The notes under the pieces: model-generated
Seen by the model: the letters and a program-made list of their open reading frames with translations, nothing else
The model's database searches: none
Told to the model about the DNA's origin: nothing
DNA from: Bacteroidales bacterium
Lineage (GTDB): Bacteria; Bacteroidota; Bacteroidia; Bacteroidales; P3
Direction: 5' to 3'
Assembly: GCA_030523765.1 (NCBI GenBank)
Contig: JAUNHX010000006.1
Coordinates: 1-64,000, forward strand
DNA length: 64,000 nt
In this document: positions 37,944 through 41,669 of the stretch, in pieces
Numbering within the stretch: the first letter of the stretch is position 1
Layout of the letters: every line of letters begins with the position of its first letter
Made by a program: the position numbers and the translations under genes

Positions 37944-38303
37944 ATGAGAAGATTAAAAGAATTTACTCCAAAAGAGAAACGGGATGAGATTGTCTCGATG
38001 TATTTAAACGGAGAGAACAGCTACGAAGAGCTAGGCGAATACTACAAAGTGGAGCCGAGTACGATACGGACATGGGTATGTAGGTATCGGAAAAGAAAAA
38101 ACATCGTATCTTTGCAGCCAAATCTCACAGCACTAGAGGAAATGGCACGCAAAAAGAAAGAGACGGACAAACCCGCCGAGGTATTGCAGCTGGAGGCCCG
38201 CATCCGCGAGCTGGAATTGCAGAACCTGGCCCTGAACACGCTGATTGATGTGGCCGAAAGGAATGGCATAGAGATCAGAAAAAAATCTGGGGCCAAGCAG
38301 TAG
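37944..38303 (+). CDS. IS3-family transposase OrfA (helix-turn-helix protein)
   Basis: A 119-residue protein with a helix-turn-helix (EKRDEIVSMYLNGENSYEEL, residues about 11-60) for binding the IS ends and a C-terminal leucine-rich coiled coil (about 75-100) for dimerisation and contact with OrfB. Near the end the message passes through A7 (38279-38285), a slippery site where a -1 shift fuses OrfA to OrfB. It stops with TAG at 38301. Confidence 0.9.
   Translation: MRRLKEFTPKEKRDEIVSMYLNGENSYEELGEYYKVEPSTIRTWVCRYRKRKNIVSLQPNLTALEEMARKKKETDKPAEVLQLEARIRELELQNLALNTLIDVAERNGIEIRKKSGAKQ
38279..38285 (+). promoter_or_regulatory. Programmed -1 frameshift site of the IS
   Basis: Seven consecutive A residues at the position where OrfA codons AAA AAA (38280-38285) give way to the OrfB frame one base back. 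This A AAA AAA context is the classic slippery heptamer used by IS3-family elements to make the OrfAB fusion transposase. Confidence 0.7.
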
Positions 38304-39213
38304 AGGAACTTCACGGGCAGCATGGCCTGACCATCATTGCCGCCTGTGAATTGCTTGGCCACAGCCGTCAGGCCTTTTACAAGAAGAAGACGGATGGTGT
38401 TGAGAGACTGACGACAGAGCGTAAGATCCTTGATACTGTGCGCGAGATACGGGAGATCGACCCGGGCATCGGGGGAGTGAAACTGTGGCTGATGCTGTCG
38501 ACGATGTATGGCAGCGGACGGATACCCGGCAGGGATGCGTTTCTGAACCTGCTGCGCAGTCACCAGTTGATGCAGAGGCCCCGCAGGAGCCGCTCCACGA
38601 CGAACTCCAACCATCGCTACCACAAGTGGAAGAACCTCGTCAAGGATTTCGTCCCCACGGCGGCCAACGAGCTGTGGGTGAGCGATATCACTTACATAGA
38701 ACTTGACAATGGATGCTGCTACCTGCACCTCGTCACGGATGCATACTCGAAGAAGATCGTCGGCTGGTGTCTGGCGGAATCGCTGGCGGCGGTCTTTACG
38801 CTCAGGGCACTCCGCATGGCCATAGAACAAGCCGGTGGCGACGACCTGTCGGGACTCATCCATCACTCCGACAGGGGTGTACAATACTGCTGCGACCTCT
38901 ATGTGGAAGAACTGCAAAGCATGGCATACAGATTTCAATGACAGAGGATTACAAACCTACTGACAACGGCATTGCCGAGCGTGTAAACGGGATTATAAAA
39001 GGCGAGAGTGTTTACCGACAGAATAGGTGTTTCCATTCGTACGAGGAGGCTTTAAAACAGACAAAACGGTTTATCCTTTTCTATAATGGCCAGCGACCCC
39101 ACTATAGCATTGGAATGCAAACACCCGACGATGCCCACAAGCAGACAGGAAAGCAACAGAGAATGTGGAAAAAAAAGATTTATCTGAAAAAAAAGTATGA
39201 GTGTGCAAATTAA
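38282..39213 (+). pseudogene. IS3-family transposase OrfB, frameshifted
   Basis: The DDE integrase-type catalytic subunit. From the A7 slip site the frame runs through IWGQAVEELHG, the HTH_21-type region and the first two catalytic Asp (SDITYI and HHSDRG), then hits a stop at 38939. The rest, with the catalytic Glu (IAERVNG), continues in another frame to 39213. Adding one A at 38916-38918 (three As where four are expected) rejoins them and gives exactly 35 residues between the second Asp and the Glu, the DD(35)E spacing of the family. So this is a real, single-base loss. Confidence 0.85.
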
Positions 39214-39217
39214 TTAC

Positions 39218-39225
39218 TATCTTTG
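39218..39225 (+). promoter_or_regulatory. Outward-facing -7 box at the IS right end
   Basis: TATCTTTG (TAnnTTTG) lies just after the OrfB stop and points out of the element. No -33 element is obvious. Confidence 0.35.
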
Positions 39226-39245
39226 CATCCGAGAAAATCCGCGGT

Positions 39246-39366
39246 TGTCAACCTTTTCAGGAACCCTGTCAACGATATCAGGTATTTGTCAACTTGTACA
39301 GGAAAACAAGTGACAACCATATCAGGAAAAAAGCAAAAAAATGTCAACCGAAATCAGGAAAAGACA
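39246..39366. repeat. IS-end-like motif array, copy B
   Basis: Five motifs of TGTCAAC (one TGACAAC) each followed by a CAGG-type block start at 39246, 39267, 39287, 39311 and 39342, spaced 20 to 31 bp. The first is the right end of the IS; the others repeat its outline outside the element. The segment 39282-39366 aligns closely with 862-946 far away in the window. Confidence 0.85.
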
Positions 39367-39372
39367 CGCGAC

Positions 39373-39530
39373 CGTCACAACGTCACAACGTCACAGTTAA
39401 TATTGGAGGTATCCTACCTCAAAATAATTTCTATATCTATATATATTTATATATAAATATATATAGATATAGAGTATAACTATACCTATGATAACCAAAA
39501 TATGGACTGTGACGTTGTGACGCTGTGACG
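39373..39530. repeat. Composite palindrome: 24-bp arms around a 42-bp perfect palindrome
   Basis: Outer arms 39373-39396 (three CGTCACAA-type units) and 39507-39530 are complementary with one mismatch. Between them, 39431-39472 is a perfect 42-bp AT-rich palindrome. The whole could form a long hairpin or cruciform. It lies directly behind the IS-end array. Confidence 0.9.
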
Positions 39531-39910
39531 CTTTTGGTTGTTGCGACGTGTTAATAACTTATTATCAATCTATTAACACTGTGTGGAGGTCGCTTTTTGC
39601 CCTTCAATGTCATGTATTTGTCGAGTAGTGGTAGCACATCATGACACTCTCTCGACATGCTATTCGTTCATCGTGCGACCCTTGTCGATGTTGGAATAGC
39701 CCCGTAATACCCTCCGTCCAATTGCCATATTCGGTCAGATTTAAAAACTCATCGGCGATGCTCTGCCTAAGGGGTGATAACGCTATGCTATTATCCTCGC
39801 GAGGCAAAGAGCTATCGTTCCGAACCTGCTTGGTCGGCCCATTGGTCTTATTACTCGGCGTCAACGTTAGCTAGTGCTTCCCTTTTTACCTACAGTAGCT
39901 TTGCGGCATA
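39531..39910. other. Intergenic stretch without assignable gene
   Basis: Two overlapping short ORFs exist on opposite strands (about 39610-39874) but neither resembles a known protein. Short inverted repeats occur (GTTAATA with TATTAAC near 39550-39577; TGTCGAG with CTCGACA at 39619-39657). A small RNA is possible but unsupported. Confidence 0.4.
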
Positions 39911-39916
39911 AGTGCA

Positions 39917-39960
39917 TTTGTAACAAAAATGTAATAATTCTGTAACGGCTTTGTAATAAG
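39917..39960 (+). promoter_or_regulatory. Four-unit 11-bp direct repeat, Pho-box-like operator
   Basis: TGTAA occurs at 39919, 39930, 39941 and 39952, an exact 11-bp period, within units of the form nnTGTAAyAnn. PhoB/PhoP-type response regulators bind direct repeats of this period (E. coli Pho box; B. subtilis TTAACA-type boxes, whose complement is TGTTAA). The array ends 7 bp before the -7 box of the Na/Pi cotransporter gene and covers the -33 zone, as for activated Pho promoters. Confidence 0.75.
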
Positions 39961-39967
39961 GGTGTAC

Positions 39968-39975
39968 TATTTTTG
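39968..39975 (+). promoter_or_regulatory. -7 box of the Na/Pi cotransporter gene
   Basis: TATTTTTG matches TAnnTTTG, 26 bp before the start ATG. No TTTG lies at the usual 19-bp distance, consistent with an activator-dependent promoter using the 11-bp repeats upstream. Confidence 0.65.
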
Positions 39976-40001
39976 CAGCACGAAAAAATGAGTAATTGAC
40001 T

Positions 40002-41669
40002 ATGAATATCGGAACTATAATACTGATTGTGATTAATTTTGTGGGGGCTTTGGCCATATTCCTCTTTGCTATGAAAATTATGAGTGAGGGATTGCAGAAG
40101 GCTGCGGGTAGTAGGATGAGGGCTATGTTGGGTAGGATTACGGGAAGGCCGATTAGTGGAATATTGACCGGTACGGCTGTGACGGCGGCGATACAGTCGT
40201 CGTCGGCTACTACGGTGATGGTAGTGAGTTTTGTGAATGCGGGTCTGCTCTCGTTGAATGGGGCTGTGGCGGTGATTATGGGCGCTAATATCGGTACGAC
40301 AATTACAGGTTGGATTATCAGTGTGCTGGGTCTTGGTGGTGGCTCGAGTTATTTCCAGTTGCCGCTCCTCATCGCTGCGGTAGGGTTGATATTTATGTTT
40401 ATGCAACGCGACAAGATGAAGTCGATAACGCAGACGGTGATGGGCCTGGCGCTGTTGCTAATAGGGATGAACCTGTTGAAGGGGGCTATTCCCGATTTGT
40501 CGCAATATCCTTCGCTGCTGGAGGGCATCGCTTCGCTGAGTGGTTATGGTTTCGGATCGGTGCTGTTGTTTGTGCTGATAGGAGCGGCTCTCACTTGCTT
40601 GGTGCAGTCGTCGTCGGCCACGATGGCGATAACGTTGCTGATGCTTTTTAAGGGTTGGATTCCTCTCGATGTGGCGATTGCGTTGGTGATGGGCGAGAAT
40701 ATAGGTACCACTATCACTGCCAATATAGCGGCGACGGTGGCAGGGACGGCAGGTAAAAGGGCTGCGAGAGCTCACCTGGTGTTCAATGTGGTGGGAGTGA
40801 CGATGATGCTGATTATTTTCCGCCCCATACTGATGGTGGTGCAAAATGTGTTTCCCGACAATGCCCCGATGGCGCTGACGCTCTTCCATACGCTCTTCAA
40901 TGTGTTGAATGTAAGCATACAGTCGTGGTTTATCCCGCAAATAGTATGGATTGTTACCAAGATGGTGCCCGAGAAGGAGGAGACCCCCACCGACGAGCGC
41001 TACCGCCTTTCATATATTAGCCGCGGACCGGTGAATACGGCCGAGCTGAATTTGCAGAGTGCTAAACAGGAGATACAGCTGTTCTCGAAACAAGTGCTGC
41101 ATATGTATGCCCTCTTGCCCGAACTGGTGAATGCCCAAAGTAAGCGGAACTTCGAAGAGACGTTACAACGGATAGCCAACTACGAACAGCTAACCGACCA
41201 GATGGAGATGGAATTGACTCGCTTCCTAACGGCTGTAGGGGGCGGCGATATTAGTGGCCATACGTCGCAACGAATCAGCTCGATGCTACGCATTATCGAT
41301 AATTTGGAGAGTATTGGTGACAGCATTTACCAGATGGCCCTGACACGACAAAATAAACGGGCCGATGCACTCCATTTTGGTGACAAACTGAATGACAATC
41401 TGGCCGAGATGTACCAACTGGTGGAGAAGACGCTAATGGTGATGGATGCCAACCTAGTGGACTACAACCGTGTGGATAATGAGGCTGCCCAACAAGCGGA
41501 GAGGGATGTGAACAACTATCGCAACCAGCTGCGCGAGAAGCATCTAGAGGATCTGAAGAGAGGTGTGTATAACTATGAGGTGGGCAACGCCTATAGCAGT
41601 CTCTACGCCCAGTATGAGAAGATGGCCGACTTTGTGGTGAATGTGACTGAGGCTATTGTGGAACAATAA
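40002..41669 (+). CDS. Na/Pi cotransporter family protein with PhoU-like domain
   Basis: A 555-residue inner-membrane protein starting at ATG 40002 (a TTG two codons earlier is less likely). It carries the two inverted QSSSAT repeats of the NptA/PNaS family (AAIQSSSATTVM and CLVQSSSATMAI), GANIGTTITGW and GENIGTTITAN, about eight to ten transmembrane segments (1-330), and a C-terminal PhoU-like helical domain (about 350-550). It is expected to take up or export inorganic phosphate with Na+. The Pho-box-like array upstream fits phosphate control. Confidence 0.92.
   Translation: MNIGTIILIVINFVGALAIFLFAMKIMSEGLQKAAGSRMRAMLGRITGRPISGILTGTAVTAAIQSSSATTVMVVSFVNAGLLSLNGAVAVIMGANIGTTITGWIISVLGLGGGSSYFQLPLLIAAVGLIFMFMQRDKMKSITQTVMGLALLLIGMNLLKGAIPDLSQYPSLLEGIASLSGYGFGSVLLFVLIGAALTCLVQSSSATMAITLLMLFKGWIPLDVAIALVMGENIGTTITANIAATVAGTAGKRAARAHLVFNVVGVTMMLIIFRPILMVVQNVFPDNAPMALTLFHTLFNVLNVSIQSWFIPQIVWIVTKMVPEKEETPTDERYRLSYISRGPVNTAELNLQSAKQEIQLFSKQVLHMYALLPELVNAQSKRNFEETLQRIANYEQLTDQMEMELTRFLTAVGGGDISGHTSQRISSMLRIIDNLESIGDSIYQMALTRQNKRADALHFGDKLNDNLAEMYQLVEKTLMVMDANLVDYNRVDNEAAQQAERDVNNYRNQLREKHLEDLKRGVYNYEVGNAYSSLYAQYEKMADFVVNVTEAIVEQ

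Follow-up and report, generated by a model that had tools for sequence, protein, structure and literature searches.

A phased 11-bp repeat array upstream of a Na/Pi cotransporter gene as a probable Bacteroidota-type Pho box

Upstream of a gene for a Na/Pi cotransporter in a Bacteroidales genome lies a series of short direct repeats, which raises the question of which regulator might read them and in response to what signal. The window, as we term the whole stretch of 64,000 nucleotides that was analysed, contains the following features at this locus (coordinates, strand, description):

39919..39923, +, array unit 1, TGTAA(C), 11 bp to unit 2
39930..39934, +, array unit 2, TGTAA(T)
39941..39945, +, array unit 3, TGTAA(C)
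39952..39956, +, array unit 4, TGTAA(T)
39963..39967, +, array unit 5, degenerate TGTAC, in phase and abutting the -7 box
39968..39975, +, -7 promoter box TATTTTTG (TAnnTTTG)
40002..41669, +, Na/Pi cotransporter with a C-terminal PhoU-like domain (PF02690, PF01895), ATG at 40002, served by the arrayed promoter

Our preferred reading, to which we assign a probability of about 0.88, is that the array represents the Bacteroidota form of a Pho box, through which PhoB would set transcription of the cotransporter according to phosphate, most likely by activating it when phosphate is scarce.

The array and its promoter in the window

The initial annotation had described four TGTAA copies at exact 11-bp steps (39919, 39930, 39941 and 39952), and these were confirmed in the sequence; the 7 bp that it gave between the last unit and the -7 box proved incorrect, the actual gap from TGTAA at 39952-39956 to the box being 11 bp, and it had not included the in-phase fifth copy (TGTAC, 39963-39967). 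Measured from the start of GTAAT in unit 4, the TA of the -7 box lies at 15 bp, which is the commonest distance among relatives. Promoters of the Bacteroidota have a consensus of a -7 box TAnnTTTG and a -33 TTTG at 19-21 bp: the absence of a -33 element claimed for this promoter stands, with no TTTG at 19-21 bp and one TTTG at 39950-39953, 14 bp away. The assignment of the downstream gene as a Na/Pi cotransporter with a PhoU domain was likewise borne out by the matches to PF02690 and PF01895, and an Rfam search of 39000-40200 gave no match. Two transposase ORFs (HTH_28/HTH_Tnp_1 and rve; IS3-like) occupy 37944-39213 of the window and end ~700 bp upstream of the array; at 39374-39400 and 39505-39530, CGTCACAA blocks and an inverted copy lie on either side of an AT-rich stretch, by eye a large imperfect inverted repeat.

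In 300 first-order Markov sequences of 64 kb the longest TGTAA chain at 11 bp comprised one unit (269 sequences) or two units (31), against the four observed, and chains of any pentamer at periods of 9-13 reached a maximum of three in 100 random sequences; TGTAA-n6-TGTAA pairs number three in the window versus 0.11 expected. The four-unit chain is beyond chance. As the spacers between the units differ (CAAAAA, TAATTC, CGGCTT, TAAGGG), the units are not tandem duplicates, and such variation is as would be expected for the half-sites of a protein binding in tandem rather than for a duplicated 11-mer.

The genome also contains other 11-bp repeats. A search of the whole genome with the strict pattern TGTAA-n6-TGTAA returned 14 matches (six for the backwards control), of which three are the array, one lies in a coding frame (locus L004), one is locus L013 and nine are another 11-bp family; the strict pattern is useless as a regulon finder in this genome. 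The separate tandem family, CTCTAATGTAA and variants, was seen at L001-L003, L005-L009 and L014 (position 1501 in each), seemingly intergenic, and could represent either a repeat family or the array of a different regulator. The nine matches, from eight places in the genome, belong to or resemble this family and would fit the proposal that the cotransporter array arose by accidental tandem duplication or belongs to the 11-bp family that the genome itself carries. However, the CTCTAATGTAA family with its period of 11 has a largely conserved spacer, which the array at the cotransporter does not, and the latter occupies the same place at orthologous promoters and keeps its phase relative to the -7 box, contradicting a duplication: we thus regard such an origin as extremely improbable.

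Conservation and phasing of the array among relatives

Of the 99 genomes of the genus, 92 gave a match to the cotransporter, and 103 upstream regions from 88 genomes were read, leaving out fragments without the N-terminus and some second copies. A promoter was counted as arrayed when it had a chain of two or more units and, in one of six phases, a -7 box. The initial annotation had held that absence of the array from orthologous promoters would speak against its reading; we found in-phase arrays at 77 of the 103 cotransporter promoters. The units follow each other at 11 bp and are [TG]TAAC-like, with the last unit placed 15/16, 26/27 or 37/38 bp before the -7 box. The proposed TGTAA unit therefore applies to the window, whilst across relatives the best-conserved unit is [TG]TAACA instead. 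When the distance was searched freely over 10-40 bp, the 77 chains gave 15 (22 chains), 16 (4), 26 (21), 27 (18), 37 (9), 38 (2) and no distance (1), values that correspond to steps of one helical repeat and would place the arrays on one face of the helix. A typical arrayed promoter of the genus reads CTTAACAAAAACGTAACA, and chains reach up to six units. Comparing arrayed and non-arrayed promoters for a -33 TTTG at 19-21 bp was uninformative: 2/77 arrayed promoters and 0/15 non-arrayed promoters with a -7 box contain it, with 11 further non-arrayed promoters having no box. A genus-wide pattern search, with 13 places fetched among the matches listed, gave few convincing targets besides the cotransporter; the further targets were a secreted or outer-membrane-like protein in genomes G025 and G062 and a PepSY-like protein in G025.

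A gene-blind pattern scan of genomes from named species, in which the gap was left free between 15 and 38 bp, returned at least 120 stretches. The first -7 box stood at one of the six phases in 100 of the 120 arrays listed, compared to 25% expected, and in 91 of 109 once 11 loci sharing DNA with the genus loci were dropped. Titled records covered 80 of the at least 120 stretches; by title, 61 were from Bacteroidota, 13 from other phyla and five from Chlorobiota or Ignavibacteria, with one unnamed. Sorted in this manner, 56/62 arrays from Bacteroidota and 5/5 from Chlorobiota or Ignavibacteria were in phase, with other phyla at 5/13, as by chance. For 102 of the 121 matches listed, an ORF of 60 aa or more starts within 400 bp. 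Of the proteins encoded downstream, 92 with a length of at least 110 aa were compared to Pfam, and 39 of these fall in phosphate-linked families, namely 17 Na_Pi_cotrans, 11 PHO4 (PiT), four Porin_O_P, three response regulators, two metallophosphoesterases (one of them a purple acid phosphatase), one PstS and one polyphosphate kinase. Another 16 downstream proteins carry a carboxypeptidase-like domain typical of outer-membrane receptors. All three response regulators have a PhoB model as their best NCBIfam match, and one (L249) passes a cut-off. Six arrays with CATTAAC units, five of them with a gap of 27, precede short proteins that look secreted or outer-membrane-like and fall in no clear family; these are perhaps arrays of a different OmpR-type regulator; in addition, the palindromic TAACATTTTGTTAACAACATTTTGTTAAG, which is unlike a Pho box, was seen upstream of an ATPase-like gene (L269, position 2402, - strand) and also at G053:C55, G053:C57 and G055:C126.

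The initial annotation had further pointed to the promoters of other phosphate genes. The strict pattern matched only 2/30 pstS promoters, which made it necessary to use a weight matrix together with controls for spacing; the matrix was derived from 217 genus units and, being trained on strict units, has inner columns that are sharp by construction. The class-wide analysis comprised 30 PstS-like, 30 PiT and, as control, 30 ammonium-transporter (AMT) promoters, taken from more matches, with stepping back through upstream operon genes for the PiT and AMT promoters and no such stepping for those of pstS. Dimer scores of at least 6 at spacing 11 were obtained for 11/30 PstS, 11/30 PiT and 0/30 AMT promoters, against 0-3, 0-4 and 0-2, respectively, at the eleven other spacings between 7 and 18. 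Spacing 11 ranked first for 17/30, 13/30 and 2/30 promoters in the same order, and scores of at least 12 were reached by 3/30 pstS promoters at spacing 11 and by none at other spacings. Class-wide, pstS and PiT promoters are hence enriched at spacing 11 only. Within this genome (G000), the pst box is weak and no box was found at the phoB promoter: its porin-pst promoter contains an in-phase dimer (GAAAC, GCAAC before TTATTTTG) that scores 3.4 at spacing 11, thus below 6, and -5.4 to -12.7 at the other eleven spacings, and has no exact TAnnTTTG. Weak two-unit boxes were seen before porin-pst in G088, G032 and G020 and before PiT-phoBR in G070 and G028 (in G028 GAAAC twice, before a PiT-like gene that is followed by phoBR). 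Reading of the pst operons in six genomes placed a two-unit box together with a -7 box before porin-pst in G020, G032 and G088, gave only the weak dimer in G000, showed the box in G070 to point to the neighbouring PiT-phoBR and revealed no box in the pst operon of G085.

Regulator, direction of control and a possible reduced phosphate circuit

In this genome, phoB-phoR is located beside porin-pstS-pstC-pstA-pstB (porin-pstSCAB); no phoU follows pstSCAB, and the sole PhoU domain found in the genome is that of the cotransporter. There are only two OmpR-type regulators. The pst-adjacent regulator passed the cut-off of the Bacteroidetes PhoB model (NCBIfam NF053854; 337 vs 270 bits), the adjacent kinase remained below that of the PhoR model (NF053855; 476.7 vs 500 bits) and yet gave the best of all listed matches, and the second regulator has RprY as its best match, below the cut-off (301 vs 370 bits).

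Which regulators count as PhoB-like was decided by BLAST, the proteins read being compared to a set that included two PhoB proteins. Across 88 genomes, 61 have both regulator and array, 16 neither, six the regulator only and five the array only; for the 52 genomes that are at least 90% complete these numbers are 39, 10, 3 and 0 (Fisher p 1.8e-8, where p-values overstate independence because the genomes are related). The five genomes with an array in which no PhoB-like gene was found have a completeness of 64-87%. A PhoB-like regulator without an array at the cotransporter copies read occurs in G006, G020, G028, G030, G031 and G032. Among these, the three of at least 90% completeness are G028, with its weak box before the PiT-like gene, G020, with its weak box before porin-pst, and G031; the latter exhibits a four-unit chain that lacks an exact -7 box in any of the allowed phases and precedes a cotransporter of 42% identity, divergent from a PhoBR-like pair. 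The arrayed cotransporter of G085 adjoins phoB and phoR. PhoB-PhoR pairs closely similar to one another, with 59-60% to the PhoB of L249, were found in 7/99 genomes (G007, G031, G027, G082, G064, G070 and G080) and look horizontally moved; a short-kinase pair was also read in G007, G027, G070, G080 and G082. Closely similar 260-aa OmpR-type regulators in eight genomes, not close to PhoB, are probably mobile as well.

Could the array be read by RprY, another member of the OmpR family, rather than by PhoB? Members of the OmpR family generally recognise repeats with a length of roughly one turn of the helix, RprY of Porphyromonas is linked to sodium physiology, and the RprY-like protein is the only other OmpR-type regulator in this genome, all of which count in favour of such a reading. 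However, nine of the ten genomes of at least 90% completeness that have neither PhoB-like regulator nor array possess an OmpR-type match in the score range of this genome's RprY-like protein (E 1e-15 to 1e-17), and hence a regulator of this range does not bring the array along; the tenth, G038, has a weak OmpR-type match only (E 4e-4), and G048 has a second match. Across the phylum, moreover, the arrays are associated with phosphate genes and with three genes resembling phoB, which also argues against RprY, and we consider its involvement very unlikely.

The initial annotation's Bacteroidales Pho-box reading is supported by the orthologous arrays, by the enrichment at phosphate genes and by the co-occurrence with PhoB-like regulators. 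Several characteristics of a Pho box are found here: tandem repeats of ~11 nt, their presence at several phosphate promoters of relatives, a place next to the core promoter in fixed helical phase and a co-occurring regulator of the PhoB family. At the level of genome comparison, the array is conserved and phased at phosphate genes across the phylum and co-occurs with PhoB-like regulators; from this we infer binding, phosphate response and the direction of activation. Phosphorylated PhoB, supplied by the phoB-phoR pair beside porin-pstSCAB, would bind the 11-bp units in head-to-tail order along a single face of the DNA and would take the place of the -33 element next to the -7 box. In this way PhoB would adjust transcription of the Na/Pi-PhoU cotransporter to the phosphate available, most likely by inducing it at low supply.

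The array may also be a Pho box at which PhoB acts in the opposite direction, repressing the cotransporter at phosphate scarcity and saving uptake for Pst, which this genome also has. In B. fragilis (PMC3547664, Table 2), BF4351, a listed Na-dependent phosphate transporter, is 101-fold down (-101-fold) in the wild type at low phosphate with no change listed in the phoB mutant, pointing to PhoB-dependent repression; this speaks against simple activation. Against repression at the present promoter, most of the genus has no Pst-like PstB match able to take over. The array also lies upstream of the -7 box, in the place of the -33 element, as it does at activated Pho promoters. Repression thus appears unlikely to us, if by no means negligible, and activation by PhoB remains the preferred direction.

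PstB matches of at least 331 bits occur in 7/99 genomes and all stay below the curated cut-off of 343; most of the genus gave no Pst-like PstB match in this search of 99 genomes with 24 candidates scored per genome. PstB-like matches at 308-319 bits (eight genomes) were rejected as paralogues, the two inspected (G045, G054) being 25-43% identical to this genome's Pst; in both, a PstSCAB-like ABC transporter adjoins genes resembling cysD/cysN by eye and is perhaps for sulfate or another oxyanion. PhoU domains are present in 92/99 genomes: those listed lie in frames of 514-706 aa, matching the cotransporter in size, with the exception of one 191-aa fragment located at a piece of a cotransporter, and there is no stand-alone PhoU among the matches listed for the 99 genomes. 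Out of 95 kinase entries beside regulators, some genomes being counted twice, 82 are shorter than 330 aa and 13 have 404-481 aa; the long kinases include those of this genome, G020, G032, G070, G080 and G088, where PstB is on the same contig, and the two short kinases scanned contained HisKA and HATPase_c only. The PhoB recognition helix differs by type, with RTIDVNITRLR in this genome and RSVDVHIARLR being commonest. A second Na/Pi cotransporter, 28-31% identical and with two stronger PhoU domains, was noted in G014, G038, G041 and G089, which are without PhoB-like regulator or array.

The Pst-PhoU complex is the usual partner of PhoR in phosphate sensing. Tentatively, and with more doubt than confidence, we propose that most species of the genus may operate a one-loop circuit without Pst and separate PhoU, consisting of a PhoR of ~285 residues (which would comprise HisKA and HATPase only, behind a short hydrophobic N-terminus), PhoB and essentially one strongly arrayed target, in which the PhoU domain of the cotransporter would silence the kinase. 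That this domain is a phosphate sensor contacting the short kinase is conjecture; if true, the Na/Pi cotransporter would be both the main target and the sensor of its own regulator. Such an apparent natural minimal Pho circuit would allow phosphate sensing by PhoR to be addressed without the Pst-PhoU complex.

Comparison with known Pho systems

The PhoP box of B. subtilis consists of TTAACA-like repeats with an 11-bp period: unit and period are nearly the same as here, whereas phylum and promoter type differ. In E. coli, the last PHO unit lies ~16-17 nt before the downstream promoter element, similar to the Bacteroidota array, and the two are also alike in being 11-nt head-to-tail direct repeats at pst and other phosphate promoters. 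They differ in the unit, the E. coli PHO box being given as CTGTCAT with an 11-nt definition (PMC4415409) and the present one as [TG]TAACA, in the Bacteroidota -7 box TAnnTTTG and in the up to six units found here.

Within the Bacteroidota, PhoB of B. fragilis binds the pst promoter by EMSA and its dependent phosphate genes are listed (PMC3547664). The PhoRB system (BF1575/BF1576) resembles the one proposed here in the family of the regulator by name and role, in the bound pst promoter and in the control of phosphate genes; unlike in this genome's operon, where phoU is missing, the B. fragilis pst genes are listed together with phoU, and the consulted part of that account contains no PhoB binding sequence. 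PhoPR of Riemerella anatipestifer is likewise a Bacteroidota system whose regulator is reported as up-regulated in phosphate starvation, and the DAP-seq motif of PhoP has TTTAACA as its most conserved bases; this motif is compared to ArcA, and a word search of the main text found no description of 11-bp repeats (PMC9603813). A Pho regulon has been described for Flavobacterium, with no mention of a Pho box, motif or binding site in the main text of the report (PMC8115612). Among the matches listed in the open-access literature searched, none describes a Bacteroidota Pho box or this phasing. Already known in the Bacteroidota are PhoB and one DAP-seq motif (TTTAACA, Riemerella; PMC9603813). What our analysis adds is the sequence, with a predicted function, its promoter context and, in most of the genus, the apparent loss of Pst and of a separate PhoU. 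The candidate operator and its spacing rule, [TG]TAACA every 11 bp with the last unit 15/16, 26/27 or 37/38 bp before TAnnTTTG, would make Pho regulons readable from Bacteroidota genomes, and a form of the Pho box close to that of B. subtilis in unit and period seems to be shared across a large bacterial phylum.
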